Source: a virus. Taken from it: DNA of 23,934 bases. The notes under the pieces were generated by a model that saw only the letters and a program-made list of their open reading frames with translations, did no database searches and had not been told where the DNA came from. The stretch covers positions 1 to 23,934 of IMG/VR virus record IMGVR_UViG_3300030333_006068; one strand, written 5' to 3'. A program made the position numbers and the translations under genes. This document shows positions 4,066 through 12,096 of this stretch, in pieces; the first letter of the stretch is position 1, and every line of letters starts with the position of its first letter.

Positions 4066-4779
4066 ATGGCTAGAATTAGTTCCTATACTCATGATGAAAA
4101 CGTCCAAAAGGCAGATAAACTTATAGGTTCTGACGTAGACGGCAAAACTAGAAATTATAGTATAGCTAATATATCGCAATACTTAAGAGAATCAAATGCA
4201 ACTGGTGCTGTTGGGTATTTCCCATTTAAATTAACAACTTCAACACCAACCTCTGGAGAAGTAAAAGGTACTTTTTCAAGTGGATTAACGTTTGCTAATC
4301 TTACATCAATTAAGATGAATAAGTATATATATAAAGATACAGATACTGCTATGAATATAGCTTTTAGAATATTGAATCAAAGAGATGTACTTATTGTTGA
4401 TGCAAACGATCATAATAACTATGGTATATATGGTGTTGGTGATGTAACTCAAGATGGTAGTTCTGACAACTATGATTTATCATGTAGTTATAAATCTGGC
4501 AACGGAACATTTTCTGTTGAAAAAATATATGCTGTTTGCTTGTATCCTAGTGGAGCAGCAACAGTTCATAAGCACCATCAAAATAATGCTGCTACTGAAT
4601 GGACAGTTAATCATAATTTTGGCTTATCTGATTACTTACCTAACGTAACAGTAAAAATGTCTGGTGGAGTAACATATGCTAATGTTCAATCTATGGGAAT
4701 AGTAACTTATGTTACAGCAAACCAACTAAAGATAAATTTTTTAAGCGCGCATAGTGGCTACGCTTATATAACAAAGTAA
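4066..4779 (+). CDS. Tail fibre / receptor-binding-type structural protein
   Basis: A 237-aa protein. The N-terminus (MARISSYTHDENVQKADKLI, then GSDVDG-KTRNYSI) matches a short motif I associate with the attachment end of fibres in marine phages: a 'task or token' sentence naming a value and its accessors (inferred from memory). The middle is beta-rich with many Asn, Thr and Asp. The C-terminal part, from about residue 167 (HKHHQNNAATEWTVNHNFG), is a recognisable phage fibre domain: a W-x-(V/I)-x-HN-(L/F)G core, then P-x-V-x-V, then a beta hairpin ending SAHSGYAYITK. That domain often forms a beta-sandwich at fibre tips. It is the first of five consecutive fibre-type genes. The start ATG directly follows the holin stop. 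Confidence 0.7.
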   Translation: MARISSYTHDENVQKADKLIGSDVDGKTRNYSIANISQYLRESNATGAVGYFPFKLTTSTPTSGEVKGTFSSGLTFANLTSIKMNKYIYKDTDTAMNIAFRILNQRDVLIVDANDHNNYGIYGVGDVTQDGSSDNYDLSCSYKSGNGTFSVEKIYAVCLYPSGAATVHKHHQNNAATEWTVNHNFGLSDYLPNVTVKMSGGVTYANVQSMGIVTYVTANQLKINFLSAHSGYAYITK

Positions 4780-4810: not shown

Positions 4811-6820
4811 ATGGCAATACCAATTTTAAATCATTTGGATTTTCAGCAATCAGCGGAAATTCAAAACGTTATCCTACACACTGAGTCTTCAGGTAGCGTC
4901 TCTGGCAACGTAGCTGGACAAATAATATATGACTCAGGAACGATAAAGTATAATAATGGAAGCGGATGGGTTTCGGTTGGTACAGCTAGTGGTACCATGA
5001 GTAACTGGATCGGAAGTGATGACGGCGGAGACGACGTTACTATAAGTGATGGTGAATATGTAAAATTTGTAGGTTCTGGTATAACAACCAATTGGACTGA
5101 TACAGATGGTGGTGGATCTTCAGACGAACATGATCTTACCTTTACAATCGATGCTGCTCAAACAGGAATAACAACTATATATAACACATCGTTAGTAGTT
5201 GGTAGTGCTTCTGCAGCACCAACAGATGGATCACGAAGATTTGTTGATTTCACTAATTCAGCTAGAACAATAATAGGTTATACTTCAGATTCTAGTGATA
5301 CAGAAACTATATACGAATTAAGACTAGGTGCTGGATTCTTTTCTCCAGGAACAGATAACCTAATAGATTTAGGTGCTAGTCTCAAAAAGTTTAAAGATTT
5401 ATATATTGACGGAGTAGCATACTTAGATGCTATTAATCTTAACGGAACAGCTATATCAGCTACAGCTGCTGAAATAAATATCCTTGACGGTGTTACGGCA
5501 ACTGCTACAGAATTAAATATTCTTGATGGAGTAACAGCTACTGCTACAGAACTTAATATCCTTGACGGAGTAACATCTTCAACTGCTGAGTTAAATGTAT
5601 TAGATGGTTATACGGGTAGTGTTACTGAACTTAATTACTTAGATACTTTACACGCAACAGGCGTTACAAGTACAGAGTTTGATTACTTAGACGGTGTAAC
5701 TTCTAATATTCAAACACAATTAGATGCAAAAGGTACTTCTAACTTAGCTTTAGGTACATCGGGTTCTACTGCTCTAGCAGGTAACACAACTGTTGACGAT
5801 GTTAGTGTTGCAAACTTAAAAACTAGATTAGCTGGTGGTTTTGCTTCTAATGCAGTACAAATTGGTGATAGTAACGATACTGTTACAATAGGTAATGACT
5901 TAATTATAACAGGTGATTTAACCGTATCAGGTGATACTATTACAGCTAACGTTGGAACATTAGAGGTTGAAGATAAAAACATAACAATTAATAAAGGATC
6001 AGGCGATACAAGTTCAACAGCAGATGGAGCAGGTATTACTATTCAAGATGCGGTAGACGCTTCTAACGATGCTAGCTTAACATGGAATGCTTCAAATGAT
6101 AAATTTGTATTTTCACATTTAATAGACGCACCAGGAACATCTATATTTGTTAATCTTGATGTATCAGGTGATGTTGATGTTGATGGTACTCTTGAAACAG
6201 ATGCTTTATCTATAAATGGTACAGCAGTAAGCGCAACAGCCGCTGAACTTAATATAATGGACGGTGTAACAGCTACAACATCAGAGTTAAACATAATGGA
6301 CGGTGTTACTGCTAGCACTAATGAATTAAATATTTTAGATGGTGTTACAGCTACAGCAACAGAACTTAACTTGCTAGATGGTATTACAACTCTTAGTGGT
6401 AGTAACACTGGTGACGAATCAGCTTCATCAAAAGTAGCTGCTGGTATTGTACAATTAGCGACTAACGCGGAAGTACAAACTGGTACAAATGCTTTAAAAG
6501 CTGTAACACCTGATACATTAGCTGCTAAATCAGTAGTAGCTACAATAGCAGCTGGTTCAATAGATTCAACACAATTATCAGCTGTAATACAACACGATTT
6601 AGGTACTAAAAACCTAATAGTTTCTGCGCAGATGGTAGATGAAGATGCTTCAGGAGATTATGGTAATTGTGTTATTGATTGGGAATGTACATCAAATGGA
6701 TCTACAGACAGTGATAACCATATATATATTAAATTTGCTGGTACTCCTTCTTCAAATGTTGTGGTGAACATATCATCAATAAAGGGTGCAACTAGTGTAT
6801 CTCCAACTTACCCGAGTTAA
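4811..6820 (+). CDS. Long tail fibre with ELNILDGVT repeats
   Basis: A 669-aa protein, Thr/Ala/Asp rich and nearly free of Cys. The N-terminus (MAIPILNHLDF) resembles that of the 134-aa fibre protein downstream (MAIEFLNDANI), suggesting a common attachment point. A segment of the kind GQIIYDSGTIKYNNGSGWV at about residue 36 is common in marine phage fibres. Two arrays of a 13-residue repeat (consensus DGVTATATELNIL) lie at about residues 217-298 and 475-526, separated by beta-rich sequence. A further familiar fibre segment (NAEVQTGTNALKAVTPDTLA) lies near residue 555. The last 75 residues form a more complex tip domain. The repeats probably build a trimeric beta shaft; the tip probably contacts the host. 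Family recognition is good, but no receptor can be named. Confidence 0.82.
   Translation: MAIPILNHLDFQQSAEIQNVILHTESSGSVSGNVAGQIIYDSGTIKYNNGSGWVSVGTASGTMSNWIGSDDGGDDVTISDGEYVKFVGSGITTNWTDTDGGGSSDEHDLTFTIDAAQTGITTIYNTSLVVGSASAAPTDGSRRFVDFTNSARTIIGYTSDSSDTETIYELRLGAGFFSPGTDNLIDLGASLKKFKDLYIDGVAYLDAINLNGTAISATAAEINILDGVTATATELNILDGVTATATELNILDGVTSSTAELNVLDGYTGSVTELNYLDTLHATGVTSTEFDYLDGVTSNIQTQLDAKGTSNLALGTSGSTALAGNTTVDDVSVANLKTRLAGGFASNAVQIGDSNDTVTIGNDLIITGDLTVSGDTITANVGTLEVEDKNITINKGSGDTSSTADGAGITIQDAVDASNDASLTWNASNDKFVFSHLIDAPGTSIFVNLDVSGDVDVDGTLETDALSINGTAVSATAAELNIMDGVTATTSELNIMDGVTASTNELNILDGVTATATELNLLDGITTLSGSNTGDESASSKVAAGIVQLATNAEVQTGTNALKAVTPDTLAAKSVVATIAAGSIDSTQLSAVIQHDLGTKNLIVSAQMVDEDASGDYGNCVIDWECTSNGSTDSDNHIYIKFAGTPSSNVVVNISSIKGATSVSPTYPS
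5459..5705 (+). repeat. Repeat array 1, 39-bp/13-aa ELNILDGVT units
   Basis: About six imperfect 13-codon units (A-T-A-T-E-L-N-I-L-D-G-V-T and variants such as STAELNVLDGYT and VTELNYLDTLH) inside the long fibre gene. Units 2 and 3 are identical in protein but differ in synonymous codons. The array decays at its 3' end into TSTEFDYLDGVT. Confidence 0.85.
6233..6389 (+). repeat. Repeat array 2, 13-aa ELNI(L/M)DGVT units
   Basis: Four further units of the same 13-residue repeat in the same gene (AELNIMDGVT, SELNIMDGVT, NELNILDGVT, TELNLLDGIT). Both arrays are introduced by an almost identical phrase (NGTAISATAAEI and NGTAVSATAAEL), which suggests an internal duplication of a shaft module. Confidence 0.85.
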
Positions 6821-6895: not shown

Positions 6896-7300
6896 ATGGC
6901 AATAGAATTTCTAAACGACGCTAACATTGCAGGCGAATTAAATTTTCAAAAATCTGGGTTTACCACAATAACACATTCTGGTAATACTCATACTGTTGAT
7001 TTTTCTGCAAAGACAAATAATTATAGCATAACAGCACAAAATGCAACCAATACAATAACTTGGAGTAATTTAGGTGCTGGTGTCGTTGGAAAGTCTGGTA
7101 TTATTACTATAACTAATCCTAGTAGTAATGGTAGTTTATCTTTTGCCGCATTACCAGCAACAGCATATACACCAGGCGCTAGTGCAATATCATTTCATAC
7201 AGGTGCTGATGCTATAGCTGTTTTGTCATATTTTATAATAGCAAGTGATAAAGTATTAATTAATTACGTTGGGGCATTTGGTTCATATCCTCAATCATAA
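6896..7300 (+). CDS. Short tail fibre / fibre tip protein
   Basis: A 134-aa protein, Thr/Asn/Ser rich, without Cys or enzyme motifs. Its N-terminus (MAIEFLNDANIAGELNFQKS) resembles that of the long fibre, and it then reads as alternating short beta strands (THTVDFSAKTNNYSITAQN; NTITWSNLGAGVVGKSGIIT). The C-terminal part (FHTGADAIAVLSYFIIASDK, then VLINYVGAFG) is a pattern I associate with small beta-sandwich domains at the ends of marine phage fibres. It probably occupies the same attachment site as, or assembles with, the long fibre. The start follows the hairpin at 6849-6880 and an A/T-rich leader, so it may have its own transcript start or be the distal part of a processed message. The receptor is unknown. 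Confidence 0.6.
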   Translation: MAIEFLNDANIAGELNFQKSGFTTITHSGNTHTVDFSAKTNNYSITAQNATNTITWSNLGAGVVGKSGIITITNPSSNGSLSFAALPATAYTPGASAISFHTGADAIAVLSYFIIASDKVLINYVGAFGSYPQS

Positions 7301-7311
7301 ATTCAAATTAA

Positions 7312-9045
7312 ATGAAGTGGTTATGGAACAGACTAGATAGTTGGAACACCTCAAAAAATACTTCAGTATCTACAAGTAAATCAACAGGAGAGAAAAGACA
7401 AACGGCAACTACTTTCAATACTAGTACAAGTACGGAAACTACTAAGAGTACAACTACCGCATATAACACTTCAACTATAACAAGTAAAACAACCACTTGG
7501 TCAACAAATAAAAGTACAACTACTGTATTTAATACATCTACTTTAGATTTTACTTTTTATCTAACAAATTATAATACTAGTACTTCAACTACTACAACGT
7601 TCAATACAAGTAAAAACACAACTACTGCGTATACTACTACGTGGGAGACTAGTAAATCTACAACGACGGCTTACAACACGTCTACAACAACTTCAAAATC
7701 TACAACAACCACTTACGAGACTAATAAAAATACTACAACTACTTGGAGTACCAATAAAAATACTACTACTGTATATACCACAGCGTATAACACAAGTACT
7801 AGTACAAAACAAGGTTGTCATTATGAAACATCTAAAAGTACAGCCACAAGTAGAAGTACATCTAAAAGTACAACTACGACGTTTACTACTACTTTTAATA
7901 CCAGCACAGATACTATTACAGTTTATACTACTCAGTGGGAAACTAGTAAATCAACTACTACTACATACGAAACAACTAAGTCTACAACTACAGTATTTAA
8001 TACTACTTGGAGTACAAACAGAAGCACAAGTACAACTTGGGAGACTAGTAAGTCTACAACCACTTATTATACTACCACGTGGAGTACAAGTAATTCAACT
8101 AAACAAGGTTCTACGTATTCAACATCTAAAAGTACGACAACAACGTTTAACACAACTACTACTTATACTACAACGTATAACACGCAAAAGAGCACTACAA
8201 CTGTGTATAATACATCTACAAGCACTGTGGTTAGTACAAGTCGCTCTACTACCACTGTTTATAATACAAGTACATTAACTAATACTGTTTATAACACTAG
8301 TACAACGGTTAAACACCAGACATCTACAGTTTGGTCAACTAGTAAGAGTACTACTACTGTGTATAACACATCAAAAACTACAACTACAGCTTGGAACACA
8401 ACAATATCAACTAGTAGATCAACTTCCAAGAGTACTACAACAACTTACACAACAACTTGGGCCACAAGTCACTCAACTAAGCAAGGTTGTACTTATTCTA
8501 CTAGCAAGAGTACCACTACGACATACAATACAAGTAAGAGTACTAGTACATCATGGCAAACTAGTATTGTTACATCAAGAACGACATCAACTAGTAGAAG
8601 TACATCAACTAGTTGGACAACATATTGGAACACAAGTGTCACAACAACATTTAACACAAGTAGAACAACTACATATACTAGTTATTGGAATACTTCTAAA
8701 AACACAACAACTGCTTATACTGCTGTTACGTTTTATAATACTGATACATCTCATAGTACTACAACCACGTTTAATACTACACCTTGTTATACTTTCTATA
8801 GAGGATCATCTTCAGTACCAAAAGGAGTGTTTGCTTGTTCACACACCTGCGGTAATACAGTAAGTTCTCCTACGTCATTCTGGTCTCTTGGTGTGGGTTC
8901 ATATGTTTACTCAGGTAATAATTGCTCAAGTGCTTATAACGGTGGTAATTCCTTCTGGGCATTAGCAAGCTCATCAGGTGGGTCTGCATACTATTCAGCA
9001 AGAATAGCATCAAATGGATATATAAATATGATAATAAGTTGCTAA
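7312..9045 (+). CDS. Thr/Ser-rich beta-fibre protein A with Cys-containing tip
   Basis: A 577-aa protein made almost wholly of Thr, Ser, Asn, Lys and aromatic residues. The commonest unit is a 10-mer, [YFW]-[NES]-T-S-K-S-T-T-T-[TVA], mixed with units of 4, 6, 8, 12, 14, 16, 18, 20 and 24. All intervals I parsed between unit-starting aromatics are even, implying continuous beta alternation. Three 12-residue blocks contain STKQG (KQGCH, KQGST, KQGCT), possible turns. From about residue 494 the repeat stops and an 80-residue Gly/Ser/aromatic domain with five Cys follows, probably a folded tip. It shares the FTFYLT and TTVK(H/R)QT segments with protein B, so the two are paralogues. No signal peptide is seen. 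Role inferred: a virion fibre or host-binding spike. Confidence 0.7.
   Translation: MKWLWNRLDSWNTSKNTSVSTSKSTGEKRQTATTFNTSTSTETTKSTTTAYNTSTITSKTTTWSTNKSTTTVFNTSTLDFTFYLTNYNTSTSTTTTFNTSKNTTTAYTTTWETSKSTTTAYNTSTTTSKSTTTTYETNKNTTTTWSTNKNTTTVYTTAYNTSTSTKQGCHYETSKSTATSRSTSKSTTTTFTTTFNTSTDTITVYTTQWETSKSTTTTYETTKSTTTVFNTTWSTNRSTSTTWETSKSTTTYYTTTWSTSNSTKQGSTYSTSKSTTTTFNTTTTYTTTYNTQKSTTTVYNTSTSTVVSTSRSTTTVYNTSTLTNTVYNTSTTVKHQTSTVWSTSKSTTTVYNTSKTTTTAWNTTISTSRSTSKSTTTTYTTTWATSHSTKQGCTYSTSKSTTTTYNTSKSTSTSWQTSIVTSRTTSTSRSTSTSWTTYWNTSVTTTFNTSRTTTYTSYWNTSKNTTTAYTAVTFYNTDTSHSTTTTFNTTPCYTFYRGSSSVPKGVFACSHTCGNTVSSPTSFWSLGVGSYVYSGNNCSSAYNGGNSFWALASSSGGSAYYSARIASNGYINMIISC
7345..8790 (+). repeat. Degenerate Thr/Ser repeat tract A
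   Basis: Protein-level repeat tract with a 6-nt (two-codon) register and commonest unit of 30 nt. At DNA level the units differ at most synonymous sites (all four Thr codons and AGT/TCT/TCA/AGC Ser codons are mixed), so no long exact tandem DNA repeat is visible. Confidence 0.8.
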
Positions 9046-9049
9046 GATT

Positions 9050-9613
9050 ATGATAAACGAAAACTTAATAAACGAATATTCGGGAACAACTTTCTCAGTT
9101 ACTAAAGTAAATGGGGTGTCAAGAATGCAATATGCGTCTAGTGATGAGCATTGGATAGAAAATAGAGAAGAGTACGGAAGTATTTTTATGGGTGATGGAC
9201 CTTGTCCAGATCCAGATAATCCATTTGTATTAGGTTCTGTATTACATAAAAGAATATTTGAAGATATACCTAATTACGAAAATGTATTGGTTTTAGGATT
9301 AGGTATGGGTTTATTACCACAGTATATAAAAGAAAACAAAAGCTTTGTAAAAGTAATCGATGTTGTTGATAATAATCAAGAAGTTATAGATTACGTAACA
9401 TTTATTGATGATTCGATTAATGTAATAAAAGCAGATGCTTATACTTATACACCTGATAAAAATTATGATTTGATTATAGCAGATTTATGGTGGCATCATC
9501 AAATCACAGGTGAAATGAAAGATAATTTAAAAAATCACTATTGGGATAACATTAATTATAATGGTAGAATTTATTTTCCTATTAACCCAATAGCTTATAT
9601 TAAAACAGCTTAA
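9050..9613 (+). CDS. SAM-dependent methyltransferase, spermidine-synthase-like fold
   Basis: A 187-aa protein with a Rossmann methyltransferase core. Motif I is VLVLGLGMG (residues 79-87). The acidic end of strand 2 is KVIDVVDNN (Asp104/Asp107), a pre-motif IKADAYTY follows, and strand 4 is YDLIIADLWWH (Asp140, Asp145). The layout V-L-x-L-G-x-G-x-G followed by V-D-x-N is that of spermidine-synthase-like proteins, but the protein is shorter than true aminopropyltransferases and lacks their full C-terminal part. Methyl transfer is therefore likelier than polyamine synthesis. It lies five bases after fibre A and two before fibre B, so it is cotranscribed with both. Inference: it modifies or helps assemble these fibres. 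A host-directed or metabolic role remains possible. Confidence 0.72.
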   Translation: MINENLINEYSGTTFSVTKVNGVSRMQYASSDEHWIENREEYGSIFMGDGPCPDPDNPFVLGSVLHKRIFEDIPNYENVLVLGLGMGLLPQYIKENKSFVKVIDVVDNNQEVIDYVTFIDDSINVIKADAYTYTPDKNYDLIIADLWWHHQITGEMKDNLKNHYWDNINYNGRIYFPINPIAYIKTA

Positions 9614-9615
9614 CA

Positions 9616-11050
9616 ATGTCAAGTACTAGTAGATCGACAACAACGTATTACGGAACAGAGACCAAAAGGTCTACAGCAGCTTCCAGAAGTACTACAACTA
9701 CATGGAGTACTAGCCAAAGCACAAGTAGAACTACTACATATAATACTAGCCGTACTACTACATGGCAGACTAGTAGGAGTACATCTAAAAATACAACAAC
9801 TACTTTTAATACTACTACAACATATACTAGTTATTGGAACACAAGTAAAAATACAACCACTACTTATAACACAAGTAAGAGTACTACCACTACATTTAAC
9901 ACTAGTACATTTTGGAATACTACTACTACATATAATACATCAACCACAGAAAGTAGAAATACAACTACGTCGTGGACTACAACTTTTAATACATCTACAC
10001 AAACTAGTAAAAATACCACTACGACCTGGGAAACAAGTAAGAGTACTACAACTGTTTTTAATACAAGTACAAATACGTTTACTTTTTACTTAACTGAATA
10101 TAATACTAGTACTAATACTACAGAGTCATCATCTACTAGTAAAAGTACAACAACTACTTTTAATACAAGTACGACTACAGTAGTAAGCACAAGTAAAAGT
10201 ACAACTACTACTTATAATACTAGTAAAACTACAAGTAAATCTACTAGTACTTCAAGATCTACAACTACTACATTTAATACAAGTACTTTTTGGAATACAA
10301 CAACTGTATATAATACTTCGACAGTTACTAGTAAATCTACTACTACAGCATACAACACTAGTACTAATACTACAACAACGTTTAATACTTCTACAGCAAC
10401 AAGTAGTAGTACAACAACTAGATATAATACTTCTACGACTACAACTACAGCGTTTAATACTAGTACCATAACGCAACATAGTACAAGTACAACTTGGTCC
10501 ACAAGTAGATCAACTAGTAGGTCAACAACTACAACTTGGACCACTACGTTTAATACAACGACGGCATATAACACACAAACGTTTTGGAACACAACAACTG
10601 TATATAATACGTCAACTATAACGCAGAAGTCAACTAATACTGTATTTAATACTAGTACAACCACAAATACAGTGTATAATACAAGTACAAGTACTACTAC
10701 GTCATGGACAACTACTTGGGAAACAAGTAAAAGTACTACAACGGCTTATAATACTAGTACCATTACGTCTAAAACTACGACAACTACTTATGAAACTGAT
10801 AGATCTACTACAACGGTATATAATACTAGTACTACTGTAAAAAGACAAACAGATTATGGTCAATCAACTAGTAAAAGTACTACGACAACATTTAATACTA
10901 GTACCACAACAACATATACTACTACCTGGGAGACTAGTAAAAGTACTACAACTACATTTGAAACTACAACTACTTTCAACACTAGTACTAATACTTGGAC
11001 ACACTATCAAACTACAACGGTATATAACACTAGTACAAGTACTTCTTTTA
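9616..11050 (+). repeat. Degenerate Thr/Ser repeat tract B
   Basis: Second protein-level tract with the same two-codon register as in protein A. Synonymous codons are scrambled between units, and A/T-rich hexamers such as AATACT, ACTAGT and AGTACT recur because N-T, T-S and S-T pairs recur. Confidence 0.8.
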
Positions 11051-11127
11051 TGACCGATTGGTATGATGGTGATAGAACAGATGGAAATCAAGGTGGATAT
11101 TTTTGGGCTAGTGGTGGTTCTAGGTAG
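9616..11127 (+). CDS. Thr/Ser-rich beta-fibre protein B
   Basis: A 503-aa paralogue of the 577-aa protein. The repeats run from the first residues to about 475. Frequent units are [YFW]-N-T-S-T-T-T-T-[TAV] and WETSKSTTT, again with every parsed interval between unit-starting aromatics even. It contains about 35 N-T-[ST] triplets and no Cys. The shared FTFYLT segment is at residues 155-160. Unlike protein A it lacks the Cys-containing domain and ends in a short Gly/Asp/Trp-rich tail (TDWYDGDRTDGNQGG, then YFWASGGSR), which may be a tip or a partner-binding end. The start ATG is two bases after the methyltransferase stop. Role inferred: second fibre subunit or shaft. An ancestral domain-loss or allelic origin by duplication is likely. 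Confidence 0.7.
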   Translation: MSSTSRSTTTYYGTETKRSTAASRSTTTTWSTSQSTSRTTTYNTSRTTTWQTSRSTSKNTTTTFNTTTTYTSYWNTSKNTTTTYNTSKSTTTTFNTSTFWNTTTTYNTSTTESRNTTTSWTTTFNTSTQTSKNTTTTWETSKSTTTVFNTSTNTFTFYLTEYNTSTNTTESSSTSKSTTTTFNTSTTTVVSTSKSTTTTYNTSKTTSKSTSTSRSTTTTFNTSTFWNTTTVYNTSTVTSKSTTTAYNTSTNTTTTFNTSTATSSSTTTRYNTSTTTTTAFNTSTITQHSTSTTWSTSRSTSRSTTTTWTTTFNTTTAYNTQTFWNTTTVYNTSTITQKSTNTVFNTSTTTNTVYNTSTSTTTSWTTTWETSKSTTTAYNTSTITSKTTTTTYETDRSTTTVYNTSTTVKRQTDYGQSTSKSTTTTFNTSTTTTYTTTWETSKSTTTTFETTTTFNTSTNTWTHYQTTTVYNTSTSTSFMTDWYDGDRTDGNQGGYFWASGGSR

Positions 11128-11181: not shown

Positions 11182-12096
11182 ATGGAAATGTTTAATCAAA
11201 AGGAACTAGATAAAAGAATAGGACCTTTAAAAAAGAATAAAAATCTATACGAACTTGAAAACGTAGAAGGTTACGTTATAAGAAAGTGTAGTGAATTTGG
11301 CATTAAAGCAAGTTATGATGTTTTAGCAGAAGAAATGCCTCATTTTAGAACCATGGGTTACACAGAGTTTGCAACATGTTTTTATATGCAACCTTTAAAC
11401 CTTAGGTTAAGAAGTGAACAATTATCTGATGCTTGGTATGATAAATGCGGAAATTGCGAAAAAGTAGATTATGCTGGTTATTTAATAGATAACGTATTAA
11501 ATAATAAAGCTAATAAATATTTGGAGAGAGAAGAAGAATTCGCTAAGTATCCACCAAAAGATAACATAGTTATCCTACCTGGATCTAATAAAATAAAAAC
11601 AAATATTTGTTTAAATAGATTAAGAGCGATTAAAAAATTACATGGAGATAATGTGTATTTTAAACCTCATCCAATAACAACTCATCAAATAATTGGTGAA
11701 TTAAAAGACTTTTTTGGTGAACATTGTATATTACCAAGGTCAATAGACATGTACTATTATATACAAAAAGCTGAAACTGTTTATACAACGCATATAAGTG
11801 AAAGTGCTATTTATGCTGCTTTATTAGGTAAAATGATACAACCAATAGATGTTTGGAACAATGTAATGAAAGGTTCTTTTGCATGTATTAATAGTTATTT
11901 ATTTACTAAGCAAGATAGAATAAAAGAATTTGTAAACCATACATTCTCAAGTTACAAATCTGGTATTATACATCCAAAGATTGATAAAGACTGGAGAAAA
12001 AAAGTTGATGAATATTTTAACTATATAATGGCTAAAAGATTAATGTATCAACACTGGTTTATAGATGATAGAAAACCAAAGCAAGAAAAGAAGTAA
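11182..12096 (+). CDS. Probable GT-B glycosyltransferase (capsule/sialyl-type)
   Basis: A 304-aa protein with no membrane segment. The C-terminal half looks like the nucleotide-sugar-binding domain of GT-B enzymes of the capsule or polysialyltransferase kind. A strand with NIVILPGSNK (residues 128-137) is followed by KPHP (161-164) and then an SES-x-x-Y-x-ALLGK segment (206-217), matching the 'KPHP ... S-x-S...A-x-x-LGK' pattern I know from those families. The N-terminal half (MPHFRTMGYTEFATCFY) is unassigned. Sugar and acceptor are unknown. It follows the Thr/Ser-rich fibre genes but has its own A/T leader, so it may be separately transcribed. Options are glycosylation of the fibres, change of the host surface, or masking of the virion; the sequence cannot decide. 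Confidence 0.6.
   Translation: MEMFNQKELDKRIGPLKKNKNLYELENVEGYVIRKCSEFGIKASYDVLAEEMPHFRTMGYTEFATCFYMQPLNLRLRSEQLSDAWYDKCGNCEKVDYAGYLIDNVLNNKANKYLEREEEFAKYPPKDNIVILPGSNKIKTNICLNRLRAIKKLHGDNVYFKPHPITTHQIIGELKDFFGEHCILPRSIDMYYYIQKAETVYTTHISESAIYAALLGKMIQPIDVWNNVMKGSFACINSYLFTKQDRIKEFVNHTFSSYKSGIIHPKIDKDWRKKVDEYFNYIMAKRLMYQHWFIDDRKPKQEKK

Follow-up and report, generated by a model that had tools for sequence, protein, structure and literature searches.

What keeps two long threonine-rich proteins of one virus in a single two-residue register, and what such a register would serve, is the question raised by positions 7312-11127 of the IMG/VR record IMGVR_UViG_3300030333_006068 (positions 1 to 23,934 of that record, 23,934 nucleotides, hereafter the window). 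A first-pass annotation, made by a model from the sequence without database searches, had described this stretch as two giant Thr/Ser-rich proteins; both are present, but a third, methyltransferase-like gene (9050-9613) lies between them, and a predicted glycosyltransferase gene accompanying the fibres was overlooked. We propose, with a probability of roughly 0.55, that the stretch is an adsorption cassette with two fibres, and that a dedicated glycosyltransferase using a cytidine monophosphate (CMP)-activated sugar modifies their (x-Thr)n shafts. The three genes that make up 7312-11127 and the one directly after them, all on the plus strand, are as follows.

7312..9045, + strand: fibre protein A, 577 residues; (x-Thr)n body spanning roughly residues 11-490, followed by a C-terminal domain that contains Cys and has no S74 match (open reading frame, homologue alignment, C-terminus scan)
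9050..9613, + strand: class I S-adenosylmethionine (SAM)-fold protein, 187 residues, with weak aminopropyltransferase/methyltransferase matches, between the fibre genes (family and profile matches)
9616..11127, + strand: fibre protein B, 503 residues; (x-Thr)n nearly end to end, with a tail that aligns with the W[YF]...GQLG..PFS.GR-type tail of relatives (open reading frame, homologues)
11182..12096, + strand: predicted GT-B glycosyltransferase of CMP-Kdo/CMP-sialic type (Kdo, 3-deoxy-D-manno-oct-2-ulosonic acid), phrog_26179, 304 residues, with an invariant K161-x-H163-P164 (PHROGs, alignment, AlphaFold2, fold search; motif meaning from PMC12887879)

The even register in fibres A and B and in their relatives

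When each protein was divided at the aromatic residue that begins a [YFW]-x-T unit, fibre A yielded 48 starts and 47 intervals, 45 of them even, and fibre B yielded 46 starts and 45 intervals, all even. The first reading had counted about 90 intervals without an odd one; 90 of the 92 are indeed even, and the two exceptions (9 and 1 residues) both come from the adjacent pair Y252-Y253 in fibre A. Phase coherence was 0.96 for fibre A and 1.00 for fibre B, values reached by none of 1000 residue shuffles and by none of 1000 Markov chains each of order 1, 2 and 3, while an order-4 chain trained on the protein itself reached the observed coherence in 20 of 1000 runs for A and in 0 of 1000 for B. The register is confirmed to lie far beyond chance, and the earlier claim that random Thr-rich sequence would not hold parity stands, with 2 odd intervals in 92 and no shuffle or chain of order 1-3 to match them. 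Neither fibre has a family match in Pfam, PHROGs or NCBIfam, and phmmer of fibre B against the PDB gave none either; tblastn of fibre A against phages was also without match, which is no sign of absence, since BLAST masks low complexity. A Pfam rve_2 match on fibre A of one relative (L009) was rejected as a composition artefact.

Relatives were gathered by a scan with fibre B (4 loci) and another with the 11182-12096 protein (80 more), and these loci contain 118 Thr-rich fibre open reading frames (ORFs) in 77 loci, the window included. Across 99 distinct fibre proteins, 135 of 5,491 intervals are odd (2.5%, leaving 97.5% even), and among the 92 relatives with at least 20 units phase coherence is at least 0.9 in 72 and below 0.6 in 14, the latter through register change. 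The commonest unit comprises 10 residues, [FYW]-[NS]-T-S-[TKR]-[SNA]-T-T-T-[TVA], with Thr at positions 3, 7 and 9 in 99-100% of 2,121 copies. In-register positions are taken by Thr (62.5%), aromatics (19%) and Lys/Arg (12%), with little Ser (0.8%) or His (0.4%), and off-register positions by Thr (31%), Ser (30%), Asn (16%), Ala (6%) and Val (6%), a composition that agrees with the two faces first described. Among 22 fibre B homologues, 39 columns are invariant, of which 36 are Thr, all on even positions. In-register Thr is above all the conserved feature of the fibre family. The fibre set is net positive (K+R 5,212 vs D+E 2,099; 41 vs 12 and 32 vs 15 in the window fibre ORFs), and Pro occurs three times in fibre A and not at all in fibre B.

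Insertions and deletions (indels) between close fibre homologues were even in 357 cases and odd in 26, the commonest length being 2 residues, whereas in the terminase, portal, transferase and other genes of the same phages 392 were even and 1,282 odd, with 1 residue as the commonest length; the pairs are non-independent in both sets, and the contrast is large. Moreover, only 30 of 3,806 intervals holding TTT or longer runs are odd, even though runs of 3 (1,945) and of 4 (1,954) are equally common, which means that phase is kept over variable local sequence. Codon identity between repeated hexapeptides was close to chance expectation in both fibres (0.377 vs 0.402 in A; 0.511 vs 0.488 in B), and such chance-level sharing indicates that the register is old and maintained by selection on the protein rather than by recent repeat copying. 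A register held along the whole chain is therefore strongly supported by coherence, even indels and TTT-run intervals; the strictness first attributed to it is not absolute in the family, as the odd intervals show.

The predicted downstream transferase and its pairing with Thr-x fibres

The 11182-12096 protein has no match in Pfam or NCBIfam; in PHROGs, it and all 54 transferase homologues match phrog_26179, whose listed function is unknown. An AlphaFold2 model from the 54-sequence alignment reached a predicted local distance difference test score (pLDDT) of 88 and a predicted template modelling (TM) score of 0.84. The best Foldseek match was WbbB with CMP-Kdo (E 1e-4), and after VIA re-alignment the first 17 rows were all KpsC, WbbB, KrkA or bacterial polysialyltransferase (Z 10.5 to 8.4; ranks 1-14 and 17 for KpsC/WbbB/KrkA, ranks 15-16 for polysialyltransferase), with other GT-B proteins at 8.0 or below. 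K161-x-H163-P164 is invariant in 54 of 54 homologues, and (K/R)xHP is the CMP-binding motif common to sialyl- and Kdo transferases (PMC12887879). The protein is thus predicted to be CMP-sugar transferase-like, an assignment to a fold class and not to a place within the known Kdo or sialyl families.

The association of this gene with the fibres was tested independently by searching DNA for the motif [YF]NT-x3-TTT-x-[YF]NT alone, which returned 120 stretches in 118 loci, some contigs recurring from the homology scans described above. In 34 loci there was no room to judge, 79 had a transferase gene downstream and 5 did not; one of these five, L296, contains a fibre A whose sequence breaks off short of fibre B, so the pairing holds in 79 of the 83 loci that are informative, mostly at a distance of 0-200 bases. 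Starting from the transferase, a Thr-x protein is encoded in the locus for 58 of 70 distant relatives, several of these proteins carrying another N-terminal domain (e.g., MAIYVNDSGTLR...). In the Caulobacter phages Lullwater and Cr30 and in KVP40-type Vibrio phages, the homologue comes just after a Thr/aromatic-rich protein, beside tail genes. The pairing of Thr-x fibre and transferase genes is near-reciprocal and spans podoviruses and T4-type phages, marine and freshwater.

Proposed role of the cassette and rival explanations

In the mechanism that we propose, the phage would make two fibre shafts, A and B, and the transferase would use a CMP-sugar of the host as donor and attach its acidic sugar (Kdo, pseudaminic acid or another sialic-like acid) to in-register Thr. 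The shaft would be an extended rod whose alternate residues face opposite ways. Its sugar-bearing face would display in-register Thr, aromatics and Lys/Arg, where the aromatics could stack on sugars and Lys/Arg could balance carboxylates, and its packing face would consist of small Ser, Asn, Thr, Ala and Val residues, probably in a beta oligomer. An odd insertion would place all later Thr on the wrong face, which would explain why indels are even. Acidic-sugar decoration would also fit the net positive charge of the fibres and the aromatics on the Thr face. The variable tip of fibre A (S74-like, Cys-rich or Hint-like in relatives) probably contacts the host. More tentatively, these proteins may represent a widespread, undescribed class of one-register (x-Thr)n beta rods, with one face decorated by a dedicated phage CMP-sugar glycosyltransferase, in podo- and myoviruses of Bacteroidota and Proteobacteria.

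Several observations weigh against this proposal. Thr-x loci without a nearby transferase exist (L323, and L256, L326 and L334, which are of one baseplate-linked type), and the transferase family also adjoins tail proteins that lack Thr-x repeats (DLP_6, L221, L223, L225, L226). Fibre Thr is a putative acceptor, proposed on the strength of the gene pairing. The fold similarity of the enzyme is modest (TM at most 0.45 among the Foldseek rows, 9-14% identity). In retaining Kdo transferases the catalytic nucleophile is the Asp of a QxxxD motif, which in KrkA precedes HP by about 35 residues (PMC12887879); this motif is absent here: the window protein lacks Gln between residues 100 and 162, and a conserved LPG[ST]N stands at that spacing. 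Taken together with the modest fold match, this absence leaves donor and mechanism uncertain. As regards the register, the Thr-x proteins of Lullwater and Cr30 are far less regular, Lullwater having 10 odd intervals out of 27, and some relatives shift register and then carry on. Lasting shifts, of one residue, occur mostly at a conserved F-x-T-F-[VIL]-R-N-[ST]-[IV]-x-T-L-I-T-A-Y-N-T element found in many fibres (e.g., fibre A of L006, L025, L034, L054 and L063), and the FxTF[VIL]RN element possibly acts as a built-in joint. Finally, the AlphaFold2 monomer of fibre B, built from 22 homologues, had a pLDDT of 31 and no secondary structure.

This model is compatible with an oligomeric beta fibre as well as with its absence, and a beta fold of the (x-Thr)n shaft is plausible. 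The first-pass annotation had gone further, reading the register as one unbroken beta alternation in a long beta fibre. A fibre does fit the context, given the tail-fibre-type cassette and the weak S74-like C-termini of relatives; the unbroken beta alternation is not established by a monomer of such low confidence. Strict alternation by itself is no proof of beta structure, because serine-rich-repeat adhesins alternate strictly and are glycosylated (PMC6973325).

Two alternatives retain some weight. According to the first, which we consider unlikely, the fibres are bare, beta-structured oligomers and the transferase acts on the host surface, for example by changing the receptor against superinfection, the two travelling together since both concern adsorption. 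Register, beta-favouring composition and S74-like tips would suit such a fibre, and the usual acceptors of Kdo-type transferases are lipopolysaccharide or capsule (PMC10148158), in keeping with a host-surface target; the occurrence of the family beside tail proteins of other composition is also consistent with it. However, it would be surprising for an enzyme acting on the host surface to accompany a single class of low-complexity proteins in 79 of 83 loci, over unrelated phage types and hosts, and to have its gene among the late structural genes, with fibre B on one side and terminase on the other.

The second alternative, likewise doubtful, accepts glycosylation but not a beta fold: the fibres would be flexible, sugar-coated bottle-brushes, and the every-second-residue spacing would be the recognition pattern of the enzyme. 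The structureless monomer of fibre B is in line with this, as are serine-rich-repeat adhesins, in which Ser alternates with Ala, Val or Thr in units of 10-20 residues (often 10) and the transferases are clustered with the substrate gene (PMC6973325). Nevertheless, local recognition needs no single phase over 500 residues, a phase that order-4 Markov chains lose and that TTT-run intervals keep, and the in-register aromatics and Lys/Arg, together with a small-residue off-register face, resemble the two faces of a folded rod. That the even register has no function and results from DNA slippage by units of 6 or 30 bases is very improbable: seven short arrays detected by Tandem Repeats Finder (periods 12-30 bases, scores 55-98) and a codon sharing somewhat above expectation among repeats within 20 residues (about 0.62) speak for it, but gene-wide sharing between hexapeptides does not exceed chance in the window proteins and the in-register Thr positions of the decapeptide stay near 100%, so that slippage is disfavoured as the cause of parity by the codon-identity and tandem-repeat tests.

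Known systems, fibre tips and neighbouring genes

Under the preferred reading of Thr-decorated fibres, the closest functional parallel is with the serine-rich repeat glycoprotein adhesins (Fap1, GspB and the serine-rich repeat proteins, with GtfA/GtfB), which likewise place a hydroxyl residue at alternate positions, are built of units of 10 residues and have a clustered transferase. The window fibres are not counted among them, differing in the use of Thr instead of Ser, in their in-register aromatics and Lys/Arg, in their location within a phage virion cassette, and in a predicted CMP-sugar enzyme in place of GtfA/GtfB, the best fold matches being CMP-sugar enzymes and the GtfA/GtfB profile not having been directly compared. 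Their export genes (SecA2/SecY2/Asp) were not noticed here, although no search aimed at them was made. The enzyme resembles KpsC (GT107), WbbB (GT99), KrkA (GT140) and polysialyltransferases (GT38) in its predicted GT-B fold and (K/R)xHP motif; unlike retaining Kdo transferases, it lacks QxxxD, is shorter (304 residues), and is phage-borne beside a Thr-rich protein instead of in a capsule or lipopolysaccharide locus. Mucin-like proteins rich in Pro, Thr and Ser also differ, Pro being nearly absent from the fibres. The needle of the T4 long tail fibre, gp37, is an elongated trimeric beta needle in which inward residues alternate along the strands. It is reported to contain seven His-coordinated irons along its length and a Phe in its hydrophobic core (PMC6957217). 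The parallel consists in the alternation; the fibres described here have no sequence match to gp37, little in-register His and regular Thr-rich repeats.

No description of Thr-x fibres or of phrog_26179 was found in the literature, most subscription papers lying outside the scope of the search, and we propose as new both the link of phrog_26179 to Thr-x fibres and its CMP-transferase fold. If correct, the proposal would give a testable function to this unannotated family and to Thr-rich proteins that may escape homology searches when low-complexity filters are applied. It would also mean that phages make dedicated, glycosylated fibres of low complexity, as is the case with Gram-positive adhesins, and the sugars, probably acidic, could influence adsorption as well as charge and stability in sea water. 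The alternation of residues would amount to a simple design rule for long protein rods, and the gene pair is present in phages already in culture (Lullwater, KVP40 type).

Fibre A tips vary widely among phages, including S74-like, Cys-rich (GGGGC.RGC), Gly/Pro-rich and Hint-like forms, with a small Cys domain in the window. Matches to Peptidase_S74, a fibre-tip chaperone, at the fibre A C-terminus were sub-threshold in L006 and L007 (E 0.04-0.06) and absent from window fibre A. Hint/intein-like C-terminal domains occur in the Thr-x fibre A of L009 (4905-7853) and in the tail protein beside the transferase in L226 (1-3786), which hints at tips capable of self-cleavage or ligation. Between the fibres, relatives have a guanidinoacetate-N-methyltransferase-like protein (L012:4227-5276, L023:4726-5793, L026, L035; also L025:4807-5373), which matches PDB 3orh in L023 (E 5e-12) and is fused in some relatives to a C-terminal Hint/intein-like domain. 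This protein might methylate fibre Arg or the glycan; a tracking of fibre Arg by the methyltransferase was unsupported (median R/(R+K) 0.69 with and 0.62 without it, the ranges overlapping).

In the first relative set, the order P0003, fibre A, SAM-fold protein, fibre B, transferase, terminase and portal is kept, the slot between the fibres varying somewhat. Three further genes of the window lie upstream.

6896..7300, + strand: P0003, small conserved protein directly upstream of fibre A, position kept in relatives (gene order)
4811..6820, + strand: P0004, tail-fibre-like, with TATELNILDGV-type repeats, an upstream cassette member in relatives (repeats, gene order)
4066..4779, + strand: P0005, opening the cassette and probably a virion protein (PHROGs, gene order)

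The terminase shares 63% identity with that of the uncultured podovirus MW202828 and about 45% with Flavobacterium elemo phages, the remaining phage matches being to Cellulophaga, Tenacibaculum and Maribacter phages. Among bacterial genome contigs, the sole relative found for the 11182-12096 gene is in a contig of a Flavobacteriales metagenome-assembled genome carrying the whole phage cassette, terminase included. On account of these matches, the source of the window is likely a podovirus infecting Flavobacteriia. The cassette also occurs in a contig of other gene make-up (L009, with primase- and exonuclease-like ORFs and no terminase match), pointing to its transfer between phage types.

A small coiled-coil-like ORF (about 60-110 residues) stands between tail protein and transferase in T4-type and other distant loci (L094:6757-6975, L168, L221, L223, L225, L095:1664-1837). 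The baseplate-linked proteins with Thr-x stretches in L256, L326 and L334 are very long (up to 2,445 residues as ORF) and have no adjoining transferase. Within the window, P0004 carries two arrays of repeats of about 13 residues (ATATELNILDGVT).

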